From an uncultured Holophagaceae bacterium (lineage in GTDB: Bacteria; Acidobacteriota; Holophagae; Holophagales; Holophagaceae), in contig CAIMFT010000142.1 in the NCBI GenBank assembly GCA_903840385.1, positions 1 to 50,721 on the forward strand: a stretch of DNA of 50,721 nucleotides. The letters run 5' to 3'. The position numbers were made by a program, and so were the translations under genes. A model generated the notes under the pieces. It had not been told where the DNA came from. It ran no database searches and saw only the letters and a program-made list of their open reading frames with translations. This document shows positions 9,003 to 31,778 of the stretch, one piece after another. The first letter of the stretch is position 1; every line of letters begins with the position of its first letter.

Positions 9003-12000
9003 CTACAGCACCGTTCCCACAACGGTGACGCAGATGGGGAAGGAGCCGCTGGTGACGGTGGTGGGGGTTAGGAGAGCACCCGTGCTGGGGTCGATGGCGC
9101 CGATGGCCACCTGCGCGCCGTTGTAGTTGGTGATGAGGCCCCACTTGCCATTGCGGCTGACCACGAGGCTGTCAGAACCTGTGCCGCCGAAGAGGTCATA
9201 GGGGCTGGCGGTGAGGGGTGTGAGGGTGCCAGAGACCAGATCGAACGCAAAGGCGGCGTAGTCGTTGAAGGTGGTGGCCAGGGTGATGTAGATGACGGAC
9301 TGGGTGGGGTTGGCAGAGACGCCGTGGTAGGCATCCGCCTGCTCCAGGCCCGTGTCCGTGGGGGCCAGGGGCGTGAGGACGCCGCTCTCCACGTCCACCT
9401 GGTGGGTGTAGAGGATGCATGCCTGCGCACCACCGCCGGCGGCCCCTTCGGTCTTGGTGAAGAGGTACTCACCGCTGCGGTCCAGAGCCAGGGAGAGGGC
9501 GCCGGTGTTGGCGGGCAGGCCGGTGCTGCTGTGGGCCACGAGGGCCCCGGTGCTGGGGTTGATGTCAAAGACCTCGATGAGATCCGAGGTACGGCCCACG
9601 GTGTAGAGCTGGCGACCGGAGGGGTGGACCAGCACATCGCCGGTGCCGGCGGCGGTGTTGGCCTGGGGCCTGGCCGTCAGGGCGCCGGTGCCGCCATTGA
9701 GCGCAAAGATGCTTATGGCGCCTTCGCAGCGGACATAGACGTACTGGGCGGAAGGATCCACAGCGGCGGCCCAGGGGTTGACGTCCGTGGGGTAGGTGCC
9801 GATCTCGGTGAGCTCGCCGGTGGTGGCATCGATCGTGAAGGCCGTGAGGGCGTTCATGGGGGTGGTGAGGCCATCACCGTTGACCGCATAGAGGTAGCGG
9901 CCGCCCGAGTCGCTGGTGACATGCAGGAAGTTCACGGCGACAGCGAAGGGGGAGTTTGCCATCTCTGTGAGGTCGCCGGTGGTGTCATTCAGGGTGTAGC
10001 CCGAGATGCCACCGCCGGAGTTGGCCACGTAGGCAAACTTGCTGGTGAAGGTAAGGACGGTCACCGTGGCCGTGGCCGTGGTGGTGGCCCCGGCAGCGTT
10101 GGTCACCGTCAGGGTGTAGGTGGTGGTGCTGGCCGGCGTGACAGCCACCTGGCTGCCGCTGGTGACGCTGCCCACACCCTGGTCGATGACGCCGGTGCCG
10201 GTGAAGGAGAAGCTGAGCAGCGTCCCCTGCCCTGCTGTGATGGCGGTGGGGCTGGCGCGGAAGAGGCTGATGCTGGGCAGGGCACCCACGGTGATGGTGA
10301 GGTTCTCCGTTGCGGTGTCACCCGCAGTGTTGGTGACCGTGAGGGTGTAGGTGGTGGTATGGGTGGGATTGACCACGGCCGTGAAGCCGCTGGCCAGGGC
10401 CGCACCGCCGGGCGTGACCACCCCGGTGCCGCCCACGTAGGCGGCCGAGAGGGTGGAAGCGCCACCGGAGAGCACATCCCCCTTGGTAGCCGCGAAGGAA
10501 TGGATCACTGGATAAGGCACGATCGGCACCAGGACGGTGTCGGTGGCGGTGGCGCCGGTGAGGTTGGCCACCACGCAGGTGAGGGCGACGCTCCCTGCGG
10601 GCCCGGCGGTGAAGGTCACGGAGCGGGTGCCGTCACCGGCGGTGATGGTGCCATTGGTGATGGTCCAGGTGTAGGTGACGCTGGCCTGGGCACCCACGAA
10701 GGCGGTGTATCCACCCCTGGCGGTGGTGACCGCCGTCGGAGCGGAGATCTCGGGATAGACCGGAGCGGCCACCACGGTGACGCTGGTGGTGGCGGACTTG
10801 GAGGGCTCAACCGCACTGATGGCCGTCACGGTATAGGTACCGGGGGTGCTGGGAGCGGTCCAGGCGTTGCTGGCCCAGCTGCCCCCGGTGGAGGACCAGA
10901 ACACCGCAGTATTGACGGCCCCGGTGACGTTGGCGGTGAACAGGGTGGTGGTGCCCACGGTGACGGTGGGGGTGGTGGGCGTGATGGAGGCCACGCTCAC
11001 CGTCTGGGGACGAACCGTTAGCGTGGCGGTGGTGCTGGTGCCCGCCTGGTTGGTGACGGTGAGGGTGTAGATGCGGGGATCGGTGATGATCCCAGTGGAG
11101 AAGGGGGTGCCGCTGGTCACCACACCCACTCGGTTGTCCACGCTGCCGGTGCCGGCACTGAAGGTCGGCGTGACGGTCGTGGACCCGCCCATGAGGACAG
11201 GGTTGGTGGCTGCCACCAGGCTGGCGGCGAGGGGTGCCGCCACGATGGTGGAGGAGCCGGTGCCTGCGGTGGAGGGTGTGCCGGCGGCATTGGTTGCCAC
11301 CACGCTGAAGGTGACGGTGCCGCTGGCGGCGGGAGTGAAGGTGATGCCGCTGGTGCCAGCGCCCGCCGTGACGGTGGCGCCGGTCACAGTCCAGGCGAAG
11401 GTCACGCCGGTCTGGGTCGGCACGGAGGCCGTGAAGCCCGCCAGGCTGGCCGTGACAAAGGTGGGCGCACTCACCACCGGGAGGGTGGGCAGCCCCACCA
11501 CCGTGACAGTCGTGCTGGCGGTCTTGGAGGCATCATCCACGGAGGTGGCGGTGATGGTGGCGGTGCCAGCGGTGGCCGGGGCCGTCCAGACGCCGGTCGA
11601 CGTGATGCTGCCGGTGCTGGCGGTCCAGGTGACGGTGTTGGTTACGCCACCGGTGGCGGTGGTGCTGAAGGTGGTGCTGGTGCCCACGGTGCGGGTCGGG
11701 GCGGCGGGGCTGAGGGCCGTCAGGGCCACGGTCTGGGGGTTCAGGGTCAGGGTGGCGCTGGCGGTGCTGCCGGCGGCGTTGGTGACCACCAGGGTGAAGG
11801 TCTTGGCGGCGGTGATGGTGCCGCTGGCGATGGCCGTTCCGCTGGTGGCGGCGGTGCCGTTCACCGTGGCGGTGCCATTGCTGAAGGTGGGGGTCACAGT
11901 GGTGGTGCCGCCATAGAGCACTGGGTTCACACCCGCCACGAGGCTGGTGGCCAGGGGGGCCGCCACAACGGTGGCGCTGACGCTGGCAGAGGGGGCGTGG

Positions 12001-13046
12001 GTGCCGGCCAGGTTGGTGGCGACACACACCAGGTCCACGGTGGTCACGGCGCTGCCGGCAGTGAAAGTGATGCTGTTGGTTCCGGCACCGGCAGTGACGG
12101 TGCCATTGGTCAGGGTCCAGGCGAAGGTCATCCCGACCTGGGCAGGGACGCTGGCGGCATAGCCTGCCTGCCCTGCGGTCACGAGGGTCGGCTTGGTGAT
12201 GACCGGGGTGCTGGGCGGAGCGATCACGGTGGCCGTGGTGCTCACGGACTTGGTGGGGTCATCCACCGAGGTGGCGGTGAGGGTGTAGGTGCCGGTGGTG
12301 GCGGGGGCGGTCCAGGTGCTGCCGGACCAGGAACCGCCGGTGGCCATCCAGGTGACGGTGTTGGTCGCGCCGCCGGCCACGCTCAGGGTGAAGCTGGCAG
12401 AAGTTGCGGCGGTGACCACGGGGGCGGCCGGGCTGAGGGCGCCCAGGGCCACGGTCTGCGGGGTCAGGGTCAGGGTCTTGGTGGCGGTGCTACCGGCGGT
12501 GTTGGCCACCACCAGCGTGAAGGTCTTGGGGGCGGTGATGACGCCACTGCTGAAAGAGGTGCCGCTGGTGACGGTGCCGACGCCGTTGTCCACGGTGCCG
12601 ACGCCATCGGTGAAGGTCGGCGTCACGGGGGTGGTCCCACCGTAGGGCACGGGATTTACGCCGGGGCTCAGGCTGCTGGCCACGGGAGCGGGCACCACGG
12701 GCACGGTGACGATGGAGGTGGCGGCAACCCCGGCGCTGTTGGTGACGGTCAGGGTGTAGGTGGTCGTAGTGGTCGGGCTGATGGTGGCCGGTGTAGCCGA
12801 GGTGACCGTACCCACACCCTGGTTGATGACGCCGGTGCCGTTGGTGAAGACCGCCGTGAGGGTGGTGCTGGTCCCCGCCGTGAGGGGAGCCTTGGCCACG
12901 GCGAAGCTGGTGATCACCGGCGCCGGGGGCGGTGGGGTGGAGGAACCCCCGCCGCAGGCCACCTGGAAGGTCAGCAGGAGGAAGCCGAGAAGCCCCAGGA
13001 CAAAAGCCAGGGGTGATTCGGGGTGGCGCTGTCTCGTGCTGAGCAT
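9003..13046 (-). CDS. Ig-repeat / beta-propeller surface lipoprotein, copy 2 (complete)
   Basis: This 1347-aa predicted exported lipoprotein has a hydrophobic segment (about 12-30) ending in QVACGGGSS, an imperfect lipobox with Cys31. Ig-like domains start at about 44. Residues 120-363, 364-602 and 603-845 form three successive superrepeats of about 240 aa, each opening with SLxxGxNPV and holding PQTV, TVTW/VFW and ITFTAG/VTFTAG phrases. Two more Ig-like units cover about 846-997. Residues 1003-1347 form a lactonase/YncE-type beta-propeller (starting KFAYVANSGGG). The ATG has GGAG six bases upstream. It is a close paralogue of the gene at 1-3641, with nearly the same length and the same order of domains. 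It follows MCO2, after a terminator. No enzyme active site is recognisable; a role as adhesin, scaffold or partner of the oxidase is inference. Confidence 0.9.
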   Translation of the reverse strand: MLSTRQRHPESPLAFVLGLLGFLLLTFQVACGGGSSTPPPPAPVITSFAVAKAPLTAGTSTTLTAVFTNGTGVINQGVGTVTSATPATISPTTTTTYTLTVTNSAGVAATSIVTVPVVPAPVASSLSPGVNPVPYGGTTPVTPTFTDGVGTVDNGVGTVTSGTSFSSGVITAPKTFTLVVANTAGSTATKTLTLTPQTVALGALSPAAPVVTAATSASFTLSVAGGATNTVTWMATGGSWSGSTWTAPATTGTYTLTATSVDDPTKSVSTTATVIAPPSTPVITKPTLVTAGQAGYAASVPAQVGMTFAWTLTNGTVTAGAGTNSITFTAGSAVTTVDLVCVATNLAGTHAPSASVSATVVAAPLATSLVAGVNPVLYGGTTTVTPTFSNGTATVNGTAATSGTAIASGTITAAKTFTLVVTNAAGSTASATLTLNPQTVALTALSPAAPTRTVGTSTTFSTTATGGVTNTVTWTASTGSITSTGVWTAPATAGTATITATSVDDASKTASTTVTVVGLPTLPVVSAPTFVTASLAGFTASVPTQTGVTFAWTVTGATVTAGAGTSGITFTPAASGTVTFSVVATNAAGTPSTAGTGSSTIVAAPLAASLVAATNPVLMGGSTTVTPTFSAGTGSVDNRVGVVTSGTPFSTGIITDPRIYTLTVTNQAGTSTTATLTVRPQTVSVASITPTTPTVTVGTTTLFTANVTGAVNTAVFWSSTGGSWASNAWTAPSTPGTYTVTAISAVEPSKSATTSVTVVAAPVYPEISAPTAVTTARGGYTAFVGAQASVTYTWTITNGTITAGDGTRSVTFTAGPAGSVALTCVVANLTGATATDTVLVPIVPYPVIHSFAATKGDVLSGGASTLSAAYVGGTGVVTPGGAALASGFTAVVNPTHTTTYTLTVTNTAGDTATENLTITVGALPSISLFRASPTAITAGQGTLLSFSFTGTGVIDQGVGSVTSGSQVAVTPASTTTYTLTVTNAAGATTTATATVTVLTFTSKFAYVANSGGGISGYTLNDTTGDLTEMANSPFAVAVNFLHVTSDSGGRYLYAVNGDGLTTPMNALTAFTIDATTGELTEIGTYPTDVNPWAAAVDPSAQYVYVRCEGAISIFALNGGTGALTARPQANTAAGTGDVLVHPSGRQLYTVGRTSDLIEVFDINPSTGALVAHSSTGLPANTGALSLALDRSGEYLFTKTEGAAGGGAQACILYTHQVDVESGVLTPLAPTDTGLEQADAYHGVSANPTQSVIYITLATTFNDYAAFAFDLVSGTLTPLTASPYDLFGGTGSDSLVVSRNGKWGLITNYNGAQVAIGAIDPSTGALLTPTTVTSGSFPICVTVVGTVL

Positions 13047-13247: not shown

Positions 13248-16200
13248 CTACTGGCCCAGGAAGGCCACGCCGGTCTGGTTCACGAGCACGGGGCCCATGG
13301 GCATGGGGGTGGTGGTGGTCCAGCTGGTGAACCCGGTGGCCGAGGCCGTCAGGTTTCCCCGCCAGCCGGTGGGCACGGTGAGGGTGTAGCTGCCGTTGCC
13401 GGCAGAGGTGGCGGTGTAGTTGCTGAACCCAGTGAGCCCGGTGGCGGTGACTGTGACACCGGCGACGCTGGAGTTGTTGGACCGGCGCCGCGTGGTGCCG
13501 GCGATGGTCTGGGTGGTGACGAAGTTCTGGACCTTGGCCGCAGCGAGGTTGGTCACGGTGACGGAGGTCGGGGAGAAGGCGAAGCCACGGAGGGTGGGTG
13601 TGATGGTGCCGCTGTAGCCCGCATTGGCGAGGAACGTGTAGGCGCCGGTCCCATCGGTGGTGGCGGTGCCACCCGCATTACCGCTGAAGGTGACGTTGAC
13701 GCCAGCCAGGCCTGCACCGTTGGTGGTGATGATGCCGGTGATGGGCCAGACAGCGCGGGCGTTGAAGTTCACCCCGGTGGTGGTGGCAGTGATGCGGTTC
13801 AGGTTGCGGCTGGCCGGGTTGAAGAGGTAGCCGACCTTGGTGGGCGTCACGGTGCCGCTGTAGTTGTTGGGCACGTAGGTGCTGTAGGTGCCATTGGCGG
13901 CGGTGATGGGGGTGTAGCCATTCTGGAAGGCGACGGCGACCCCGGCCAGCCCAGTGGTCGTGCCATTGAGGGTGACGGTGCCCGAGACCAAGCGGCCCAC
14001 AACGGCAGTGAAGTTCTGGCCCGGCTGATCCGTGGTGGCGGCGGTGATGGTGATGGGAATCGGGGTGATGAAGTAGGTCGCCTTGGTGGCCGTGAGGGTG
14101 CCCGTGAAGGGGGCATCCACCACCTGGCTGAAGTTGCCACTGCCGTCGGTAAGGAGGGTCTGGCCGGTGCTGAAGCTGACGGTGGCGCCGGTGAGGCCGG
14201 GGGTCCCGTAGGTCACCTTGCCCGAGATGGTGATCACAGGAATGGCCTGGAAGTTCTGGGCCGTCTGGTCCACCTGCAGGTTGTTGTAGGTGAAGCTGGC
14301 GGGGACGTAGCGGTAGCTGGCGGTCACGGGTGCGGCGGTGCCGGTGAAGCCCACGGGCACGGTGTAGGAATAGGCACCGGTGGCAGCCGTGATGGCGGAC
14401 TGGCCGTTGCTGACGCTGATGCGGATGCCGGGGACCGGGGCGGTGCCACGGGTGGCGGTGCCGGAGACGGTCACCGAGGGCACGCCCGGGGAGACGATGT
14501 TGCTGGGCAGGGCGTCGCCGGCCTGGTTGTAGGCAACCACGCGGTAGTCGTAGACAGGTGAAGCACCGGCGGTGAAGTCCATGTAGCTGCGGACATTGGG
14601 GACAACGGTGCCGATGGTCGCCCAGGCAGCCGTGGTGCCACCCGCCCGGCGCTGGATGGAGAAGCCGGTCTCATTGCTGGCGTTGTCGGTCCAGGCCAGA
14701 TCCACCCGGGTGGGGGCGCCAGCAGGGATGGAGTAGCTGAGGGCCGAGGCGGCCTCGGGGACGGTCACGGCGACGTTGAGCACCATGGGCCGCATGAAGT
14801 CGTTCTCTTCGTGGCCGAGGATGTGGCAGTGCCAGACGTATTCCCAGCCGTAGCTCTGGACTGTGTTGGCCATGGTGATGGGGTTGCCATCCGCCGGGTT
14901 GGTGAAGGCAATATTGGCCGTGGCCGGGTACATGGGGTTGGGAGAGCGGCTGCTGTTGGGCAGCACGAAGGGCAGCCGGGGGGACAGGGGACGGAAGGCC
15001 ACGATGCAGTCCTCGAGGGGGTGCATCTTGACGGTTTCCTTCCAGCCCAGCTCGTTGGGCTCGGGCATGCGCACGGCGCCGTCCCAGCCCACACGGTTCA
15101 CGATCTGCACATCAAAGAGGTGGAAGTGCACCGGGTGGGAGTCCACGCCGTTGTGGGTGATCTTCCAGAACTGGGTGGTGCCGTCCGTGAGGTACTCGGT
15201 GGTGGGGTCCTGGTAGCCCAGGGGGATGGTGGTCTGAACGTTGAAGTTGGTGAAGGGCAGCTCGACGCCGAGGGTGGCGTTCATGCGGCCGTAGTCCAGC
15301 TCGAACAGCTCCTGGATGGCCTTGGGCTCCAGGGTGGGCTGCACCAAGTCGCCGTTCTCCATGGATGGGAAGGGGAGGCGGAACTGGTTGTCCTGGATGC
15401 GGATATAGGGCGTGGTGAGGGTCTTGCCCAGGGCGGTGTTGTACGCTGCGTTGGGCACGATCGGGGGATGCTGGGCCTCGGCGAAGGCGCCGTTGCTGGT
15501 GGCCGAGGACGTGAAGGCCGCAAACAGGGGGGCCGTGTCGTAGGCGGGGTAGGTGCCCGCAGCCGCCAGGGGATCACCAGCCACTTCAATGAGCATGATG
15601 GTGCGGGTGTTGGGGCCGTAGCCAGGCAGGGTGGTGTCAGCACCACCGCTGTCGCGCTGGTCGGGCGCACCGGTGTAGTAGTCCAAGCGGGTGTCGAAGG
15701 CGGGCACGGGGGCCGGGGCATCGTTGTAGAGGATGAGCGACTTGCCGGCGAAGGCCGAGAAGTCCACGATTACGTCGGCGCGCTCGGCGGGGCCCAGGAA
15801 GAGGGCCTTGTCCTGGACATTGAGCACGACGATGTCGCGGCGGTTGTAGTTGTAGCCGACCGGCTGGGCAGGGATCACCACAGGGTTGGGCAGGAAGCCG
15901 CTCTCATTGCCGATCTGGATCATGTCGGGCCCCTTGGTGAGGGGATCCGGCACGCCGCCAGCACGACCATCGGTGGGCCAGGTGGCAGGCCAGGAGGCAT
16001 TGGGAGCCGAGGGCACCATCTTGACTTCAGTGAAGCGGCCATTGGCATCAGGCAGGCTGGTATCGGCCTGGAAGAAGCTCAGGTTCCAGAAGCGGTCGTT
16101 GGCGGCGTTCAGGATGCGGAAGCGGTAGGCCTGGGGCTGGACAGCCAGCCGCGGGTAGGCAGTGCCGTTGACGATGGGGGTGTCCATGAACGCTTCGGGC

Positions 16201-17843
16201 GTCAGGGAAGGGTTGGGCGTGCCGGGGATCTCGGTGCCGTTGGGGTCGCCCTGGATGGGCTCGGCGCCATGCACCAGGCCAGCAGCGGCAGTCAGCGGGG
16301 GCCAGAACCACGGGCCGTAGTCCCAGCGACCCATGGCGTTGGCGCCACTGATGTCGGCGGGGTTCTGGTTGGGCATGTAGACGTGGGGGTACCAGAGGCT
16401 GCCATCCGCACCGTACTTGGCGATGTCCCAGGTGGGATCGGTGGCAGGCGTGCCAACACCCGCCAGCCAGATGGGGTCAGTGGCCGAGGTGTAGGGGATA
16501 TAGGCCCCGCTTAGCGCATCGAACTTCTTGACAACGTAGCCCTTGGGGTTCTTGACAGGGTCCACGAGGAGGCTATCCCGCAGGAGATAGCCGGGGTGGA
16601 GGGGATCGGGCTCGATCATCGTCATGCCGACCACACCCTGGAGGCCCGCAGGGTTGGCCCGGTCAATGTTCATGGTGCTGGTGTCAACGAAGGTCTTGTC
16701 CTGAATGACCAGGGGGGTGCCGATGCCGGGCAGGATGCCGGCAGTGATGAGCTTGGTATCCACCGGATCGACGATGAGGTAGCCGGCGGCTTCGCCCGCA
16801 TACACGTTCAGGCGGGTGAGGCCAAAGCTGTGGTCGTGGTAGAACATCAACCGCCCACTCTGCTGGTTGCTCCAGAAGTAGGTGCCGATGCCGTCGCTGG
16901 GAGTGCCAGTACCCATGTCGGGCACGTTCTGGAAGGCGACGCCCTTCAGATAGGGGTTGCTCTCGCCCACAGGAGTCACCCACTGGTGGGGGGTGCCGTC
17001 ACTGATCCAGGGGTTGAGGCCACCGTGCAGGTGGAACTCGGCCCGGTTCTGGGAGAACACGGGGCTGCTGCTGCCATTGGCACCCAGGCCAGCCCCCATG
17101 AGGGTGGTGTCCACAGGGATGAAGAGGTTGCCCCCGCTGGTCGTGGTGGGCAGCTGGTTCCGCATCATCACGCGGACCGGGCGGTCCTTGGTGGCGACGA
17201 TGACAGGGCCCAGGTAGTTGGAGGCACCACCGCTGATGGTGTTCACGCCCGGCGTCAGGTGCTGGGCGTAGCCCCGCAGCTTGGTGGGGGCCAGGTCGCT
17301 GTGGAACCGCTGGGTGTACTCGACGACGTCAATCTCGTAGTAGTCGGACCCGGGATACTTGGTGGTGTTGGCCACGGCCACGGGGATGTAGTTGCCCAGG
17401 TTGTTGGCGTTGGCCGCCCCGAGCCCAGGCAGGGTATCCACGAACTTGTGGATGGGCTTGGTGTTGTGCCAGTTGGTGGCAGTGGCGAACATGTAGTCGG
17501 GCTGTTGCAGCTGGGAGCCAGCACCGGGGCCGGGGACAGCCGCGCCGGCCACAGCACCCTTGACGCCGGCCACGGGGGCGGCCTTGGCGGGGTTCACACC
17601 GAGGAGCTTGGGATCAACCCTGCCCCCCTTGGCCTTGAGGGCCTCCTTGGTGCGGGCCGCCGCAGCGGCGCGCGCCTGGTTGAGCACGGCCCGGCGGGTG
17701 GCCCGCTCGACGATGGCCTCCCGGTCACCTCCGGGGGTGGGTGCGGCAGTGCGGTTGGTGCCTTCCGGAACATCCGCTTGCAGGACGCCCCCGCTGATAA
17801 CCACGGCGACGAGCGCCAGGAGCCTTCGAAGTGCTGCTTTCAT
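13248..17843 (-). CDS. Giant secreted multicopper oxidase MCO2 (MofA/OmpB-like)
   Basis: This protein has 1531 aa from the ATG at 17841-17843, chosen because GGAGG lies five bases upstream and a signal peptide (MKAALRRLLALVAVV...) follows at once. An in-frame ATG at 17894 would add 17 unlikely residues. The architecture matches MCO1: signal peptide, Arg/Ala-rich segment, cupredoxin domains, FnIII-like domain and five regulatory-like repeats ending in GVAFLGQ. Copper motifs are HLH 271-273, HDH 336-338, HPVHFH 903-908 and HCH 1005-1007 with His1011 and Phe1016 at the axial position. A loop of about 76 residues after FVDTST replaces 18 in MCO1 and 8 in MCO3. A candidate promoter is at 17898-17926 and a palindrome at 17988-18003. 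The substrate is unknown; metal ions or an electron-transfer role are plausible from relatives. Confidence 0.93.
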   Translation of the reverse strand: MKAALRRLLALVAVVISGGVLQADVPEGTNRTAAPTPGGDREAIVERATRRAVLNQARAAAAARTKEALKAKGGRVDPKLLGVNPAKAAPVAGVKGAVAGAAVPGPGAGSQLQQPDYMFATATNWHNTKPIHKFVDTLPGLGAANANNLGNYIPVAVANTTKYPGSDYYEIDVVEYTQRFHSDLAPTKLRGYAQHLTPGVNTISGGASNYLGPVIVATKDRPVRVMMRNQLPTTTSGGNLFIPVDTTLMGAGLGANGSSSPVFSQNRAEFHLHGGLNPWISDGTPHQWVTPVGESNPYLKGVAFQNVPDMGTGTPSDGIGTYFWSNQQSGRLMFYHDHSFGLTRLNVYAGEAAGYLIVDPVDTKLITAGILPGIGTPLVIQDKTFVDTSTMNIDRANPAGLQGVVGMTMIEPDPLHPGYLLRDSLLVDPVKNPKGYVVKKFDALSGAYIPYTSATDPIWLAGVGTPATDPTWDIAKYGADGSLWYPHVYMPNQNPADISGANAMGRWDYGPWFWPPLTAAAGLVHGAEPIQGDPNGTEIPGTPNPSLTPEAFMDTPIVNGTAYPRLAVQPQAYRFRILNAANDRFWNLSFFQADTSLPDANGRFTEVKMVPSAPNASWPATWPTDGRAGGVPDPLTKGPDMIQIGNESGFLPNPVVIPAQPVGYNYNRRDIVVLNVQDKALFLGPAERADVIVDFSAFAGKSLILYNDAPAPVPAFDTRLDYYTGAPDQRDSGGADTTLPGYGPNTRTIMLIEVAGDPLAAAGTYPAYDTAPLFAAFTSSATSNGAFAEAQHPPIVPNAAYNTALGKTLTTPYIRIQDNQFRLPFPSMENGDLVQPTLEPKAIQELFELDYGRMNATLGVELPFTNFNVQTTIPLGYQDPTTEYLTDGTTQFWKITHNGVDSHPVHFHLFDVQIVNRVGWDGAVRMPEPNELGWKETVKMHPLEDCIVAFRPLSPRLPFVLPNSSRSPNPMYPATANIAFTNPADGNPITMANTVQSYGWEYVWHCHILGHEENDFMRPMVLNVAVTVPEAASALSYSIPAGAPTRVDLAWTDNASNETGFSIQRRAGGTTAAWATIGTVVPNVRSYMDFTAGASPVYDYRVVAYNQAGDALPSNIVSPGVPSVTVSGTATRGTAPVPGIRISVSNGQSAITAATGAYSYTVPVGFTGTAAPVTASYRYVPASFTYNNLQVDQTAQNFQAIPVITISGKVTYGTPGLTGATVSFSTGQTLLTDGSGNFSQVVDAPFTGTLTATKATYFITPIPITITAATTDQPGQNFTAVVGRLVSGTVTLNGTTTGLAGVAVAFQNGYTPITAANGTYSTYVPNNYSGTVTPTKVGYLFNPASRNLNRITATTTGVNFNARAVWPITGIITTNGAGLAGVNVTFSGNAGGTATTDGTGAYTFLANAGYSGTITPTLRGFAFSPTSVTVTNLAAAKVQNFVTTQTIAGTTRRRSNNSSVAGVTVTATGLTGFSNYTATSAGNGSYTLTVPTGWRGNLTASATGFTSWTTTTPMPMGPVLVNQTGVAFLGQ

Positions 17844-17897
17844 GGCTTCCTCCATTCTGACAACTTGCTTTAATTGCAATGCTTTCGATTTCATTAA

Positions 17898-18286: not shown

Positions 18287-21200
18287 TTACTGGCCGACGA
18301 AGGCCAGGCCGGTCTGGTTGGTGATGACCGAGGTGTAGACAGCCTGCTTGGTGTTGAGGGCCACCGAACCGATGTACCAGTTGGTGAACCCGCCGCCTGC
18401 TGCGGTGACGGTACCAGCCCAGCCCGTGGGGACGGTGAGGGTGAAGGCGCCCGCGGCGGAAGTGGCCGTGGTGCTGCTAAAGCCCGTGGCGCCGGTGGCA
18501 GTGATGACGACGCCGTTCACATTGTTGTTGTTGCTGGCCCGCTTGGTGGTGCCGGCAATGGTCTGCATGGTGATGAAGTTCTTGCCCGTGACGTTGGCAC
18601 CGCTGACAGTGACACCGGTGAGGGGGGCACTGAAGATGGAGCCAGCCTTGGTGGCGGTGATGGTGCCCGTCCAGCCCTGGTTGACGAGGGCCGTGTAGGT
18701 GCCGTTGACGCCGGTGGTGATGGCAGTCGTGATGCCGTTGGAGGCGGCGTTACCACTGAAGGTGAGGGTGACACCGGAGACCGGGAGACCCATGGTGGTG
18801 ACCGTACCGCTGACCGACCAGGCGGCGCGAGCGGCGAAGTTCTTACCGGTCTGGGCATTCCTGACGTTGTTCAGAGCGACGGTGGCGGGGGTGAAGGCAT
18901 AGCCGTTCGCCGCAGCCGAGATCGTCCCGGTGTAGGCAGAGGGAACGTGGGTGGTGTAGGTGCCGATTTGGGCAGCGGTCCCCGTGCTGGCAGTGGTGAG
19001 GGTGTAGCCGTTGGTCAGGGCGATGGTGACGCCCCCGAGGCCAGCGGTGCCGAGGGTGGCACGGCCAGAGACCGCGATGCCGGCGACGGCGCTGAAGTTC
19101 TGAGCCGTCTGGTTGGTGGTGGCGGCCGTGAAGGTGCGGGCCGTCTGGTTGGTGGCTGCCGTGATGAAGTAGGCGGCCTTGGTGGCGACGACGGTACCGG
19201 TGAAGGGGCTCGGCACCGTGAGGGTGTAGAGGCCGCCGGCATCGGTGGTAGCGGTCTGGCCCGTGCTGGCAGTGACGGTGACGCCGGCCAGATTGGTGAC
19301 ACCGGAGGTGACCTTGCCGGTGACGGTGATCACGGGGATGGCGTTGAAGTTCTGCGCCGTCTGGTTGGCCTGCAGGTTGGTGTAGGTGAAGCTGGCGGGG
19401 GTGTACTGGTAGTTGGCCGTGGTGGGGGTGGAGGTGCCGGTGAAGCCCACGGGAACGGTATAGGTGTAGTTGCCGGAAGCATCGGAGACGGTGGTCTGGC
19501 CGTTGCTGACGCTGAGGACGATGCCGGCCACAGGGGTGGCGCCGTTGGCAATCGTGCCGGACACGGAGACCGTGGCGACGCCGACGGTGGCGATGTTGCT
19601 CAGGGGGGAGTCGCCAGCCTGGTTGTAGGCGGCCACGCGGTAGTCGTACCGGGCGGGGTTGGCGACGCTGTAGTCACTGTAGTTGTTGCTGTTGGGAACG
19701 GCGGTGCCGATGGCCACGAAGGGATCCGTGGTGTTGGCAGCCCGACGGTAGACGGTGAAGCCGGTCTCGTCCTTGGCCTGATCGGTCCAGGCGAGGTCCA
19801 CGCGGCTGGCATTGACGCCGGCAGCGGTGAGGTTGATGGGACGCTTGGGGGTCGTGGTGGCAACGTTCAGCACCAGGGGGCGCATGAAGTCGTTCTCTTC
19901 GTGGCCCAGGATGTGGCAGTGCCACGCATACTCCCAGCCGAAGTTCTGGCCAGCGTTGGTGATGTTGATCGGGTTGCCATCCAAGGGGTTGGTGAAGGCG
20001 ATGGTCTTGGTGGCCGCTTCGGTAACGCTGGGGGAGTGCACGCTGTTGGGGAGGGCGAAGGGCAGCCGGGGGGACAGGGGCCGGAAGGCGACAACGATGT
20101 CTTCCAGCGGGTTCATCTTGACGGTTTCCTTCCAACCGAACTCGTTGGCCTCGGGGTAGCGCACAGCGCCATCCCAGCCCACGCGGTTGATGACCTGCAC
20201 ATCAAAGAGGTGGAAGTGCACGGGGTGGGTGTCCACGCCGTTGTGGGTGATCTTCCAGTACTGGGTGGTGCCATCGGTGAGGATCTCAGTGGCGGGATCC
20301 ACATAGCCGAGGGGGATGGTGGTCTGGATGTTGAAGTTGGTGAAGGGCAGCTCGACGCCGAGGGTGGCGTTCATGCGGCCGTAGTCCAGCTCGAAGAGCT
20401 CCTGGATGGCCTTGGGCTCCAGGTTGGCCACCACCGCGGTGCCGTTCTCGGTGGCGGTGTGGCTGACGGTGGTGTCCTGGATGCGGACATAGGTGTCAGG
20501 CATGACCGTGTTCAGGGCGCTGTTGTAGGCGGACTGAGGCACGATGGGAGGGTGCTGGGAAGCCGCGAAGGCGCTCTGGCTGGTGCCGGTGGACGTGAAG
20601 GCCGTGTTCAGGGCCGTTGTGTCGTAGGCAGGAGCGGCGGTTGCGGCTGTACCAGCCACTTCAACGAGCATCATGGTGCGGGTGTTGGGACCGAAGCCCG
20701 GCAGGGTGGGCGCTGCGCCGCCGGAGGTGGTCTGGTCGTCAGACCCGGTGTAGTAGTCAAGCCGGGGATCGAAGGCGGGCACGGGGGCCGGGGAGTCGTT
20801 GTAGAGAATGAGCTTCTGGCCCGCGTAGGCAGAGAAGTCAACGATGACGTCAGCCCGCTCGGCGGGGCCGAGGAAGAGGCCCTTGTCAGCCACGTTCAGC
20901 ACGACGATGTCACGCCGGTTGTAGTTGTAGTTCACGGGCTGGGGAACGATCTCCACCGGGGTGGGCAGGAAGCCGCTCTCGTTGCCGATCTGGATGAAGG
21001 AGGGACCGGCCGCCAGGGGATCGGGCACGCCACCGGCGCGACCATCCGTGGGCCAGCTGGCGGGGAAGTTGGCCGAGCCGGGGGCGGCGGGGACCATGGC
21101 CACTTCGGTGCCAGTGCTATCAGCCTTGAACCAGCTCAGGTTCCAGAAGCGGTCATTGGCCGCATTGAGGATCCGGAAGCGGTAGGCCTGGGGCTGCACC

Positions 21201-22740
21201 ACCATCTTGGGGTAGGCGGTGCCGTTGATGACGGGGGTGTCCATGAAGGCTTCGGGCACCAGCGAGGGGTTGGGCGTGCCAGGGATTTCGGTGCCGTTAG
21301 GATCGCCCACGACAGGCTCGGCGCCATTGACCAGGCCAGCGGCCGCAGTCAGCGGGGGCCAGAACCACGGACCGTAGTCCCAGCGACCCATGGCATTGGC
21401 CCCACTGATGTCGGCGGGGTTCTGGTTGGGCATGTAGACGTGGGGGTACCAAAGGGCCCCATCGCTGCCGTACTTGCCGGTGTCCCACGTGGGATCGGTG
21501 CCACCAGCGACACCAACGGTGCCGAGGGTGGTGGTGTCCACGAAGGTCTTGTCCTGGAGGATGAGGGGAATGCCGTAGTTATTAACGCCGCCGCCGTTGT
21601 TGGGCAGGATGCCGGTGTTGATGAGCTTGTCTTCCACGGCATCAGTGAGCAGGTAGCCCGCCGCCATGCCCGCGTACACGTTCAGTCGGGTGAGGCCGAA
21701 GCTGTGGTCGTGGTACCACATGAAGCGGCCGCTCTGCTGGTTGGTGTAGTAGTAGGTGGCGATGCCATCACCGGCGGTGCCGGCGCCCATGTCGGGGACA
21801 TTCTGGAAAGTGACGCCCTTGAGGTAGGGGGTGGTGGTCTCACCGCGGGAGTGACCCACTGGTGGGGCGTGCCGTCGCTGATCCAGGGGTTGATGCCACC
21901 GTGGAGGTGGAACAAGGCCCGGTTCTGGCTGTAGAGGCCGCTGCCGTTGGTGGGGCCCTTGCCAGCGCCCATCATGGTGGTATCCACGGGGAGGAAGAGG
22001 TCGCCGGCGGCGCCGGTGGGCAGCAGGTTCCGCATCTTCACGCGGACCGGCCGATCCTTCTTGGCGATGATGAGGGGTCCGAGGTAGTTGGACGCCCCGC
22101 CACTGACGGTGTTCGTGGCCGCCACGTTGTGCTGGACAAAGCCACGCAGCTTGGTGGGGTTCAGCTCGCTGTGCAGCTGCTGGGTGTACTCGACGACGTC
22201 GATCTCGTAGTAATCGGAGCCGGGGTAGGTCGTGGTGTTGGGCACGCCAACGGGAATGTAGTTGCCCAGGTTATTGGCGTTGGACGCCCCCAGCCCAGGC
22301 AGGCCATCGATGAACTTGTGGATGGGCTTGGTGTTGTGCCAGTTGCTGGCGGTGCCGAACATGTAGTCCGGCTGCTGGAGCTGGAACCCGGGGCCGGGGA
22401 CGGCCACGCCAGCCACACCCTTGACGCCAGGCAGAGCAGCGCCCTTGACGGCAGCGATCGAAGCTGCGGCGCCGGACTTGGGAGCGGGGTTCACGCCGAA
22501 GACCTTGGGATCGACCTTGCCCCCCTTGGCCTTCAGTGTCTCCCTCGCGCGAACAGCAGCGGCTTCCCGGGCCTGGTTCAGCCGGGCGCGGCGGGTGGCC
22601 CGCTCGACGATGGCATTGTGATCGCCACCGGGGGTGGGCGCTGCGGTGCGGCTGGTGCCCTCGGGCATTTCGGCCTGAAGGCCCATCCCAGCGAGGAGCG
22701 CCGCCACGAGCGCCAGGTTGCGGTTGAACTTGTGATTCAT
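18287..22740 (-). pseudogene. Giant multicopper oxidase MCO3, split by a one-base frameshift
   Basis: The N-terminal part reads from the ATG at 22740 (GGAG seven bases upstream; signal peptide MNHKFNRNLALVAALLAG) through HLHGG and PHQWVTPA. It then shifts into a frame that runs to 21682. The rest of the protein, including YLKGVTFQNVPDM, HDH, HPVHFH, HCHILGHEENDF, the FnIII-like domain and five repeats, continues intact in another frame to 18287. MCO1 reads PAGEA at the junction; here the bases read GCGGTGAG where GCGGGTGAG would restore PAGE, so one G is missing at about 21843-21846. A corrected product would be about 1484 aa with all copper ligands and Phe at the axial position. Everything else is undamaged, so the cause is either a very recent mutation or a sequencing/assembly error in a GC-rich spot. 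Two palindromes upstream (22891-22928) tie it to MCO1 and MCO2. Confidence 0.88.
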
Positions 22741-23300: not shown

Positions 23301-24929
23301 CTAGAAGTAGAGCTCTGCCGAGGTGTAGGACGGCCCGACGCCACCCACCAAAAGGACCTTGGTACCCACCAGGGTGGCGGTATGGTCGTAGCGGCCCTGG
23401 ACCATGGTCCCGGCGGAGGTGAGCAGGCCTGTGGAGGGGTCAAACAGCTCGGCCGTGCTCAGCAGGAGCCCGCCGGCGCTGGGGTCTGTGGTCTTGCCGC
23501 CAGCCAGGAGCACTGTGCCATCGGGCAACAGGGTCGCAGAGTGGCTGAAGCGCGTGGAGGACATGCTCCCTGCGGCGGCGAAGGTCCCGGTAGTGGGGTC
23601 GTAGACGTCCACAGCCAGTGAGGTGGCGCCGCCTGACATCAAGACCTTGCCAGTGGGCAGCAGGGTGGCCGAGTGCCAGTAGCGCCCCGCAGCCATGCTG
23701 CCAGTGGCAGTGAAGGTACCTGCGGTGGGGTCGTAGAGCTCTGCAGAAGCCAGGAGGCTGGAGCCATAGCCCCCGGCGATGAGGACCTTGCCACTGGCCA
23801 GGAGGGTGGCCGTGTGGAGGTAGCGGAAGCCCTGGGGGGCGGCGCTGGTGGCGGTGAAGGTCCCGGTGGCGGGGTCGTAGAGCTCTGCCGTCTGCAGGAT
23901 GGCCAGGGAGTCCCGGCCGGCCACGATGAGCACCTTGCCGCTGGGCAACAGGGTGGCGGAGTGGTAGGCCCGGGCTCGAGTGAGGGAACCGGTAATACTC
24001 AGGGTGCCGGCGACAGGATCGTAGAGCTCGACACTGGCGGTAGGGGCGCCGAAGGTGTAGCCCCCGACGATGAGGACCTTCCCACTCGCCAAGAGGGTGG
24101 CGGTGTGGCCGTAGCGGGGGGTGGTGAGGGTGCCGGCAGAGGAGAAGGTCCCGGCCGCTGGATCGTAGAGCTCCAGTGTCTGCACCGGGCTGGTGAGGTA
24201 GCCACCGACGACGAGGACATTCCCGGTGTTCAGCAGCGTGGCTGTGTGGAGGTAGCGGCCTCCGCTCAAGCCGCCTGTGCTCGTAAAGGCACCGGCCGTC
24301 ACAGAGGCCCGGACAGTGAGGGTGGCGGTCGTGCTGGTGACCGTGGTCCCAAAGCCGTCCTGCACCTGCACCGTGTAGGCCGCTCCGCTGTCGGCCAGCA
24401 GGGCTGCGCTCGTGGTGTAGGAGGCCGAGGTGGCCCCCGTGATGGCCGTGCCATTGAGCAGCCACTGGTAGTTCAAGGTCCCGGTGCCAGAAGCCACCAC
24501 CGTGAAGGTGGCGGTCGCGCCCACCAGGATGGACTGGCTGGAAGGCTGGGTGGTGATGCTGAGGGAGGGGCCCTCCACGGTGATGCTGAGGCTGGCGGTG
24601 GTGCTCCCGGCACTGTTGGTGGCGGTGACGGTGTAGGTGGTCAGGGCCGTGACCGTGGTGGGCGTACCCGAGATGATGCCGGTCTTGGTCGCCAGAGAGA
24701 GGCCCGTCGGCAGGGTTGGGCTGACGGCATAGGAGTCCACATCCCCCCCGGTGTGGGCGGGGGCATTGGCGGTGATGGCGGTGCCGGCCAGATAGACGGC
24801 AGGATTGGTGGCATAGGTGAGGGCCGTGGGGGCCTCAATGATGTCCTTGCAGCCTAGTCCCGCCAGCGCCAAGCCCAGCAGCACCATCCCGAGGATCACC
24901 TGCGACCAGCCCTTCCGCATCAGACCCAT
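23301..24929 (-). CDS. Kelch-repeat lipoprotein with two Ig-like domains
   Basis: A 542-aa exported protein if it starts at the ATG at 24929, preceded by GAGG; an in-frame TTG at 24953 is possible but less attractive. A hydrophobic signal ends in LAGLGCKD, a lipoprotein-like Cys with an imperfect lipobox. A putative Ig (He_PIG-like) domain with PTLPTGLSL and GIISGTP follows, then a second Ig-like domain with YQWLLNGT. Seven kelch-type blades then follow, each with the pattern H(T/S)ATLL...GKVL(I/V)...GG...(A/V)ELYDP, forming a closed seven-bladed propeller up to the C-terminus. It lies 33 bases after the cytochrome/binding-protein fusion and belongs to the same operon as the SCO1 gene. Kelch propellers bind partners or carbohydrates, or act as galactose-oxidase-type enzymes; no galactose oxidase copper ligands were identified. 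Function unknown. Confidence 0.88.
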   Translation of the reverse strand: MGLMRKGWSQVILGMVLLGLALAGLGCKDIIEAPTALTYATNPAVYLAGTAITANAPAHTGGDVDSYAVSPTLPTGLSLATKTGIISGTPTTVTALTTYTVTATNSAGSTTASLSITVEGPSLSITTQPSSQSILVGATATFTVVASGTGTLNYQWLLNGTAITGATSASYTTSAALLADSGAAYTVQVQDGFGTTVTSTTATLTVRASVTAGAFTSTGGLSGGRYLHTATLLNTGNVLVVGGYLTSPVQTLELYDPAAGTFSSAGTLTTPRYGHTATLLASGKVLIVGGYTFGAPTASVELYDPVAGTLSITGSLTRARAYHSATLLPSGKVLIVAGRDSLAILQTAELYDPATGTFTATSAAPQGFRYLHTATLLASGKVLIAGGYGSSLLASAELYDPTAGTFTATGSMAAGRYWHSATLLPTGKVLMSGGATSLAVDVYDPTTGTFAAAGSMSSTRFSHSATLLPDGTVLLAGGKTTDPSAGGLLLSTAELFDPSTGLLTSAGTMVQGRYDHTATLVGTKVLLVGGVGPSYTSAELYF

Positions 24930-24962
24930 ATGCACCTCAACCTGTTGAAGCAACCTTGAAGA

Positions 24963-26672
24963 CTAGTGAATGACCCACTCGCTCTTGCGCACCAGCACCG
25001 GTGTTGCGCCAGGGCCGACCTGCATGATGTAGCAGCCCTTGGAGGCGTACCGCTGGCCGGGGCCGAAGCTCAGGCGCAGGTAGTCGGGCAGGATCTGATC
25101 CCGCTGCATGCCAATGCGGTCCAGCAGGTTGTCCCGGTAGAAGTGCCGGTCCATGTCCATAAGGGCCTGGCGCAGCACCTGGACCATGGCGTAGGTCCGG
25201 GTGGAGACGCGGGTCTCGGGGTGCCGCTTGGTAAGCCCGGCCAACAGGGTGTCGGCATAGGCCGAGAACTTGGGCTCGAGGTGAGGCTCCCGGTAGGGGT
25301 AGGTGATCCAGACATGGGCCCGGACCTGCTCGGGCAGGCTGGTGACCTGGGCCCCCAGCAGGCGGGCGGACAGGAAGCCGTTCACGGGCGTAGGCCCCTT
25401 GCGGAGGAGGGCATCCAGGGCGGGATAGATGCTATCCCCGGTCCAGAGCAGCACGGTGGAAGGCTTTTCCTGGTCCAGGATGGCTGCCAGGCCGCTGGCA
25501 TCCAGAGCGCCTTCCCGGGGCAGTGGGAGCTCCTTGATGGGGGGCTGGCCCAGCTCAGCCCAGGCTTCCCGGAAGCCCTGGGCAAGGGCCCTGCCCTGAG
25601 GGGTGTCCTGCACCAGCTGCAGCACCTTGCGGGCCGCGGCAGGGTTGTCCAGACCATTGAGGTAGCGGGCCGCAGCCTGGCCTTCCTGGTAGTAGCCCTT
25701 GGAGAAGTACTGGGTGTACCAGTCGGTGTCGGAGACTGCGGGCAGGTCCGTGATGGGGAAGAGGCAGGGGAGCTGACTGCGCTCGCAGAAGTCGTGGACA
25801 GGCTTCCAGTCGCCGTAGGAGATGCCCCCCAGCATCGCAAAGACGGGGTCCTTGGCGAGGAAGGCCTCCAGCTGCCGGCCCCAGGTATCGGGGGCGCCCT
25901 GGAGGCGCCAGACGGAGAGCGCCATCTTGCGATAGGCGCCGCTCATCTCATTGCCACCCACGCCCAGGTACATCCGGTTGCCGAACCCGGCCGAGAACTG
26001 GTTGTGGCGCTTGACGTAGTTGTTGATGGGAACCAGCATGGCCTGCTGGTCGTCCACGCTGACCTCGGGGGTGATGACCGTGGCGAAGTGGAGGGTGTCC
26101 CCGATGACCCCCGGGGAGTGGCGGGCGGAGAGGTTGGCCAGGTAGTGCAGGAGGATGGCCATGTCCGGGTCGCTCAGGTAATAGCGGGGCATGACCGGGT
26201 GCATGTCCGTGCCCCCAGGATCCCGACCCGTGCGGATCAGGTGGGCCAGAGTCGCATCCGTGTAGGCAGGCCGGGCCGGCGGGTTCTGGAGCTTGAGCTC
26301 CTTGCGCTCCTCCAGGCTGAGGTTCGGGAACTTCCAGTAGCGGGGAATGGAGAGCCGGGCGGCATTGGTGGGCAGGGTGACAATGCCCCCCTCCCAGGAG
26401 CCGAGGCCACCGCGCAGGTGGCAGCTGACGCACGAGAAGGAGGTCCCGGCAACCTGCACATCGCCGCTGACGATGGAGGACATGGGCTCGCCCGACGGGA
26501 GGATCCCCTGGCGGTACATGCGCTCGCCCAGCACCAGCTTCTGCTCGGAGGTGAGCTCGGCGGCGGCCGGGGCCGGCTTCACCTGGGCCAGGGCTGGCGT
26601 TGCCAGCAGCAGCACCCCCAGGAGGGGCGCCAGCAAGCGCCGGAAGGCACCGGGTTCGGGGCGACTGCTCAT
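24963..26672 (-). CDS. Cytochrome c fused to type-1 periplasmic-binding domain
   Basis: This 569-aa predicted periplasmic protein combines two modules. A signal peptide ending ATPALAQ (residues 1-30) is followed by a c-type cytochrome domain with a single CVSCH heme motif (81-85) and a likely axial Met in HPVMPRYYLSDPD. From about residue 190 to the end it resembles a LivJ-type (ABC amino-acid receptor) binding protein, with no transporter permease or ATPase beside it. The ATG at 26670-26672 overlaps the SCO1 stop (ATGA), showing tight coupling; a longer frame upstream would lie inside SCO1 and is not preferred. The fusion could sense or bind a ligand and couple it to electron transfer. Context with SCO1 and the multicopper oxidases suggests respiration or metal redox; this is inference. 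The ligand is unknown. Confidence 0.88.
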   Translation of the reverse strand: MSSRPEPGAFRRLLAPLLGVLLLATPALAQVKPAPAAAELTSEQKLVLGERMYRQGILPSGEPMSSIVSGDVQVAGTSFSCVSCHLRGGLGSWEGGIVTLPTNAARLSIPRYWKFPNLSLEERKELKLQNPPARPAYTDATLAHLIRTGRDPGGTDMHPVMPRYYLSDPDMAILLHYLANLSARHSPGVIGDTLHFATVITPEVSVDDQQAMLVPINNYVKRHNQFSAGFGNRMYLGVGGNEMSGAYRKMALSVWRLQGAPDTWGRQLEAFLAKDPVFAMLGGISYGDWKPVHDFCERSQLPCLFPITDLPAVSDTDWYTQYFSKGYYQEGQAAARYLNGLDNPAAARKVLQLVQDTPQGRALAQGFREAWAELGQPPIKELPLPREGALDASGLAAILDQEKPSTVLLWTGDSIYPALDALLRKGPTPVNGFLSARLLGAQVTSLPEQVRAHVWITYPYREPHLEPKFSAYADTLLAGLTKRHPETRVSTRTYAMVQVLRQALMDMDRHFYRDNLLDRIGMQRDQILPDYLRLSFGPGQRYASKGCYIMQVGPGATPVLVRKSEWVIH

Positions 26673-27223
26673 AGGAGGCCCGCCTTCTTGCACTCGGCCA
26701 TGAACTCGGAGGAGCTCATGAGGCCAAAGATACGGATCCACTTCCCGGTCTTGGGGTCCCGGATCAGGGTCAGGGGGTAGTGGGACATTTTGTTGGGGAT
26801 GTAGGCATTGAAGGCGTTCATCACCTTGTCGATGTCCTCCCGGCGGCCGGTGAAGAAGTCCCAGCCTGGCTTGGCCCGGTAGCGCTTCAGGTAGTCCCGC
26901 ATGACCTTCGGGGTGTCGTTCTCAGGGTCGATGGAGATGGACACGAGGTGGATCTTGGGGCCACCCGGGGGCAGCTTGGCCTGCAGGTTGGCGTAGCCCG
27001 CCGAGAGCACGGGGCAGATGGTGGTGCAGGTCCCAAAGATGAAGTCCAGGATGATGGGTTCCCCGGAGTCCAGAAGGCCCTTCAGCTTCACCTTGGCGCC
27101 GTCCTGGTTGACCAGGACCAGGTCGGGCACAGTGTAGGTCTCAAGGGTGCGGGTATAGGGGGGTGGGGCTTGGGCGGACAGCACCACGGCGGTCATCCCA
27201 AGGGCCATAGAAATCCGTCGCAT
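26669..27223 (-). CDS. SCO1/SenC-family copper chaperone
   Basis: A 184-aa thioredoxin-fold protein of the SCO family, which delivers copper to the CuA site of cytochrome oxidase or acts as a thiol-disulfide reductase. Copper-binding residues are visible: Cys66 and Cys70 in FGTCTTICP and His148 in MSHYPLTLI. The N-terminus (MRRISMALGMTAVVLSAQA) is a short signal peptide. The ATG at 27221-27223 has GGGAG seven bases upstream; a longer in-frame start at 27322 would add an unlikely charged extension reaching into the rpoC-side spacer. It is the first gene of the three-gene operon with the cytochrome/binding-protein fusion and the kelch protein. No cytochrome oxidase genes are nearby, so the chaperone may instead serve the adjacent multicopper oxidases or the fusion protein. 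Family assignment is firm; the client is inferred. Confidence 0.93.
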   Translation of the reverse strand: MRRISMALGMTAVVLSAQAPPPYTRTLETYTVPDLVLVNQDGAKVKLKGLLDSGEPIILDFIFGTCTTICPVLSAGYANLQAKLPPGGPKIHLVSISIDPENDTPKVMRDYLKRYRAKPGWDFFTGRREDIDKVMNAFNAYIPNKMSHYPLTLIRDPKTGKWIRIFGLMSSSEFMAECKKAGLL

Positions 27224-27332
27224 GCCTGTCTCCCGGTGGCCGAACCTGCCCGGTCCGGATGCCTGTCTAGATTTGTCTATCAGAACATGAACCAACCCAG
27301 GCGGGGAGGCTACGTCTCGCAAGGTGGTAAAT

Positions 27333-27358
27333 AAACGGCCCGCCGAAGCGGGCCGTTT
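27333..27358 (-). terminator. Terminator of the rpoBC operon
   Basis: A perfect 11-bp stem (AAACGGCCCGC / GCGGGCCGTTT, loop TTCG on the minus strand) followed by ATTTACC, 20 bases after the rpoC stop. It separates the ribosomal/RNA polymerase cluster from the SCO1 operon. Confidence 0.88.

Positions 27359-27377: not shown

Positions 27378-31778
<4,401 letters not shown>

Follow-up and report, generated by a model that had tools for sequence, protein, structure and literature searches.

SCO1, a MofC-like cytochrome fusion and a kelch lipoprotein beside giant multicopper oxidase genes of a Holophagaceae genome: a probable periplasmic accessory module

The window analyzed here, a stretch of 50,721 nucleotides from the genome of an uncultured Holophagaceae bacterium (3.1 Mb, 212 contigs; the nearest relatives with a name are metagenome-assembled genomes of Holophagaceae), carries three genes that lie between rpoC and a series of giant multicopper oxidase (MCO) genes. 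The question raised by this locus is what a copper chaperone, a cytochrome joined to a binding domain and a kelch protein might do beside such enzymes. On the minus strand, rpoC (27378-31778) is followed head to tail by SCO1, the fusion and the kelch lipoprotein, with these features:

27329 to 27358, minus strand: intrinsic-terminator-like hairpin 3' of rpoC (11-bp stem, TTCG loop; read by eye)
26669 to 27223, minus strand: SCO1/SenC-family copper chaperone with thioredoxin fold, 184 aa (PF02630, E 1.9e-19)
24963 to 26672, minus strand: MofC-like fusion of a mono-heme cytochrome c and a type I (LivJ-like) periplasmic binding domain, 569 aa, Sec leader (PF13458, E 1.1e-11; motifs; fold)
26418 to 26432, minus strand: heme c attachment motif CVSCH of the fusion, residues 81-85
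24966 to 26096, minus strand: binding domain of the fusion, with the signature WxP[VI]HxFCE...PCxFP (W289, H293, C296, E297, C303; core-family alignment and structure)
23301 to 24929, minus strand: kelch-repeat lipoprotein with Ig domains (Kelch_4, E 4.5e-33; He_PIG, E 2.6e-11; lipobox GLGC)

The tight packing reported in the preliminary description was re-found in the sequence: the ATG of the fusion at 26672 shares an ATGA with the TGA of the SCO gene (a 4-base overlap), and the kelch ATG at 24929 follows the fusion stop after a 33-base gap. An automatic promoter and terminator scan yielded nothing above chance, and the hairpin after rpoC was absent from its list. Given this hairpin, the trio probably has its own transcript and is not simply read through from rpoBC.

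The SCO1 protein shows the features expected of its family, namely the PF02630 match, a CxxxC motif (CTTIC at residues 66-70) and a distal histidine (His148), the latter two placed where the copper ligands of Sco proteins would be expected. Its leader is of the Sec type and has no lipobox, and the protein is probably periplasmic. Since two members of the genus (G244 and G284) each have at least one further, separate SCO, the copy in the trio looks dedicated.

For the fusion, Pfam names the C-terminal part only (Peripla_BP_6) and leaves the cytochrome part undetected; the cytochrome was therefore assigned from CVSCH and a candidate axial Met161 (within MPRY), as the CxxCH motif and the Met are kept in all 41 homologs examined, at 100% down to about 22% identity. 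An AlphaFold model, built from 14 sequences, is of moderate quality (mean pLDDT 64, with the heme part mostly low) and was therefore used for the binding-domain fold only. Its C-terminal part resembles LivJ/AmiC-type proteins (Foldseek best E 5.7e-12), and comparison with LIVBP (2liv) gave a Z-score of 14.9 and an rmsd of 8.6 over 309 residues. By sequence, phmmer returned no solved homolog, and a profile search gave weak matches outside the binding domain. Motifs, Pfam match and fold together bear out the earlier reading of a heme domain joined to an amino-acid-receptor-like domain. The closest comparison is with MofC-like proteins, which consist of a cytochrome c and a periplasmic binding domain (PMC5566968). 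The fusion combines both in one chain and its gene is linked to a giant extracellular MCO gene, so that we call it MofC-like by domain architecture and gene linkage, with Leptothrix discophora MofC and GSU1397 being compared by description. Its leader suggests that it probably resides in the periplasm as well.

Within the homologs, 35 form a core family, while a remote subfamily of six (L030-L034, L037; 22-36% identity in the match) does not share the signature of the core and was left out of the count. We considered whether the binding domain contains a conserved metal or disulfide site and rejected this, as C296, C303 and C547 vary: W289 and H293 occur in all core members, C296 is Ser in three, C303 is Asp in two, and C547 is Gly or Ala in four, with one more core sequence incomplete at this position.

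Downstream of the trio lie the following genes:

18287 to 22740, minus strand: giant MCO with a broken reading frame (pieces 21682-22740 and 18287-21859; frameshift near 21842)
13248 to 17894, minus strand: giant MCO, 1548 aa, with a C-terminal CarboxypepD_reg domain and all four copper motifs
9003 to 13046, minus strand: YVTN/lactonase-type beta-propeller protein with Ig domains, 1347 aa (PF10282, E 3.2e-19)
3829 to 8298, minus strand: giant MCO, 1489 aa, with CotA/bilirubin-oxidase-like segments and all four copper motifs

The preliminary description had spoken of three adjacent copper oxidases. Three giant MCO genes are indeed present, but the propeller gene interrupts the row and one of the three is frameshifted. 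In this MCO, the nearest to the trio, residues to about 311 lie in one frame and the remainder in another, a break that may reflect either genuine decay or faulty assembly. The other two have both the size and the four motifs (HxH, HxH, HxxHxH and HCHxxxHxxxxM) of OmpB/MofA-type enzymes. As for further OmpB features, a fibronectin type III match fell below the cut-off in one MCO, and one to two EXXE motifs occur per MCO. With a Sec-like leader, the MCO is probably exported and extracellular. The preliminary description had named no ABC permease nearby; between fusion and MCOs, the part of the window's ORFs that our scan covered, no ABC permease or ATPase was recognized.

Does the association with MCOs hold across genomes? 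Among 47 genomes of the genus, the fusion is found in 20 and a giant MCO in 21; both occur in 19, the fusion alone in one, the MCO alone in two and neither in 25 (Fisher 5.6e-10, uncorrected for kinship). The two genes are adjacent, 2.0-5.8 kb apart, in 15 genomes, and in the other four both-positive genomes their matches are on different contigs. Common occurrence of the trio without MCO genes had been named beforehand as the observation that would count against a link; in the genus, a single fusion-positive genome out of 20 (G413) is without a giant MCO. Here the fusion gene is adjoined by a smaller MCO-like gene, with a weak MCO match, of the same type as the MCOs named by Pfam in L056/L058 (G205 and G292). 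We also analyzed 277 genomes from the class of a Pelobacter metagenome-assembled genome (MAG), whose fusion relatives (L011) are 43-44% identical, using an OmpB-like MCO query. Here, 63 genomes have both genes, 20 the fusion only, 27 the MCO only and 167 neither (p 2e-23), and fusion and MCO are adjacent in 34 genomes, at 0.4-2.9 kb. As 20 of the 83 fusion-positive genomes of this class are without an OmpB-like match, the link is strong, not absolute.

The composition of the loci defines which genes belong together. SCO adjoins the fusion in most loci, both in most genus members and in other classes and phyla, and further relatives accompanied by SCO and MCOs were seen in other families of the phylum, in Cupriavidus and in Paraburkholderia. 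Several MCO-linked paralogs (L025/L067, L036, L038, L049) lack an SCO neighbor, so that the tie between fusion and SCO is not a strict one, and fusion and MCO make up the core pair. Among the loci compared, the kelch gene occurs in those of the Holophagaceae type only, and it is a local addition to the module. The trio is therefore not conserved as a whole: the conserved core consists of SCO, fusion and MCO, or, in a few paralogs, of fusion and MCO alone.

The MCO partners also vary: the fusion is found beside MCOs of 736-773 aa and, in Cupriavidus and distant members of the window's phylum, beside shorter ones. Divergent fusion paralogs without SCO lie beside a 736-773-aa MCO-like gene in L056 (7478-11853), L058 (9632-14044) and L059 (8948-13457), with a small conserved protein (LSGTWKGSFTL...; no Pfam family) encoded in between. 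In Paraburkholderia (L041, 1522-9690) and Cupriavidus (L039, 1619-9712), a 2700-aa protein lies between MCO and fusion; the Paraburkholderia copy has cadherin-like and SdrD_B domains, and type II secretion genes are nearby. In Deltaproteobacteria MAGs (L014, 1871-7152; L013, 10001-12152), NosL follows the fusion, accompanied in L014 by a YtkA-like protein and an ABC pair of the MacB/FtsX type; the ABC genes near some relatives are of this type and not of the LivHM type. A remote cytochrome/binding-domain relative (L063, 8054-14084) lies among SCO, a thioredoxin/DsbA-like protein and a cytochrome-d1-like propeller. In a close relative (L007, 8301-10733), the kelch-gene matches are split or duplicated. 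A contig labeled Bacillota (L008, JAJTBC010000239.1) carries the whole Holophagaceae-type locus, with an SCO that is 85% identical, and this MAG label may be wrong.

SCO1, a MofC-like protein and an extracellular MCO form a published arrangement, to which the window's locus belongs; new here is the population evidence, i.e., co-occurrence and adjacency in the genus and in the Pelobacter class. In the ompB cluster of Geobacter sulfurreducens (GSU1394 OmpB, GSU1397 MofC-like, GSU1398 SCO1; PMC5566968), as in the window, a giant outer-membrane or extracellular MCO is found with an SCO1 gene adjoining that of a MofC-like cytochrome c; the window differs by the kelch lipoprotein, three MCO genes and the YVTN propeller, with the GSU proteins being compared by description. 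The mofABC genes of Leptothrix discophora and relatives (PMC5566968, PMC8218464) likewise place a MofC-like protein beside a giant MCO, and some relatives have a copper chaperone, as the window has SCO1 (in Rubrivivax, a mof-like operon with a copper metallochaperone; PMC8218464). In contrast to mofABC, the trio and the MCO-locus genes analyzed in the window showed no MofB (FKBP isomerase), while the Pelobacter relative L011 has one. The mnxG operon of Pseudomonas putida GB-1, for which our comparison rests on PMC11409713, shares with the window an MCO, a YVTN propeller, SCO1 and an ABC substrate-binding protein with a cytochrome c domain; it encodes the Mn oxidase MnxG, two SCO proteins and SurA, whereas the window has the kelch lipoprotein and three MCOs. 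Sideroxydans lithotrophicus ES-1 (PMC5566968, Fig. 4C) has three tandem MCO genes with mofC-like and copper chaperone genes, as does the window, although, according to that paper, the Sideroxydans enzymes are not homologs of OmpB/MofA.

We therefore read the trio as a periplasmic accessory module of the MCO, of the MofC/OmpB kind, with a probability of roughly 0.9. The earlier suggestion that the trio serves the MCO locus in maturation or electron delivery finds support in the strong physical linkage and the co-occurrence in the genus and the Pelobacter class, and matches the hypotheses of PMC5566968 and PMC11409713. As to the main job of this module, the gene content leads us to lean, by a little, towards maturation rather than electron delivery. 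In such a scheme, SCO would carry copper and handle thiol redox in the periplasm, and the MofC-like protein would dock there through its binding domain; electron exchange at its heme would let the MCO receive its copper as Cu(I), either ahead of export or in the course of it. The kelch lipoprotein may act locally as a partner at the surface or in assembly. That MCOs reduce O2 unaided, with no need of a cytochrome partner, supports the maturation reading. It is also favored by the company that the fusion keeps elsewhere, which consists of factors for folding or metal handling: SCO, an FKBP isomerase (L011), a LolA-like protein (L041), NosL (L013, L014), a MacB-type ABC (L014), a DsbA-like thioredoxin (L063, remote subfamily) and, in P. 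putida, SurA (PMC11409713). Several observations weigh against it, namely the MCO-linked paralogs without SCO, the Pelobacter-class genomes with a fusion and no OmpB-like match, and the variation of C296 and C547, which leaves no clear metal or disulfide site. Moreover, the published proposal for MofC is electron transfer.

That proposal, which PMC5566968 attributes to Brouwers et al., leads to the second reading, in which the MofC-like cytochrome links the MCO to the periplasmic chain, carrying electrons from it (Mn(II)/Fe(II) oxidation) or to it (Fe(III)/Mn(IV) reduction). The heme ligands, invariant in homologs, fit this idea, as does the requirement for OmpB in Fe(III) oxide reduction by Geobacter (PMC5566968). 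It has to bridge, however, a single-heme fusion that is probably periplasmic and an MCO that is probably extracellular, and the trio and MCO genes analyzed include no recognizable porin or multiheme conduit. As MCOs normally hand electrons to O2 unaided, we consider electron delivery possible and rather doubtful, second to maturation and ahead of ligand sensing, the least supported of the three.

Ligand-gated electron transfer or redox sensing had been put forward in the preliminary description, and we found no positive evidence for it. A LivJ-like domain that binds a small molecule and tunes the heme or a partner would suit the LivJ/AmiC-type fold and the conservation of W255, W264, Q267, W289, H293, E330 and W410, invariant in the 35 core homologs and absent from the six remote ones; yet docking or structure explains these residues equally well. 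Furthermore, neither a sensor kinase nor a regulator was recognized in the trio or the MCO genes, and among the annotated relatives response regulators were seen near a single one (Paraburkholderia, L041), so that a sensor seems unlikely. It is similarly improbable that the LivJ-like half binds a copper complex or other ligand and gates the heme, which would make the fusion a ligand-controlled periplasmic copper reductase feeding secreted MCOs. Finally, that the trio came to lie beside the MCOs by chance after rpoC, where the genes are found in the window, G284 and G384, is hardly credible: the co-occurrence data refute it, SCO-fusion adjacency in most loci excludes it, and the linkage is kept in the genus, the Pelobacter class, other families of the phylum and Burkholderiales.

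To our knowledge, MofC-like proteins have been noted for years in the genomes of metal oxidizers without a tested function. The tight MCO linkage in Holophagaceae, the Pelobacter class and Burkholderiales, including SCO-less paralogs with different MCO types, makes the fusion a conserved MCO partner. The three genes beside these giant secreted copper enzymes probably help to load copper or to move electrons, and the fusion offers a clear knock-out target for the maturation or wiring of extracellular Mn/Fe multicopper oxidases.
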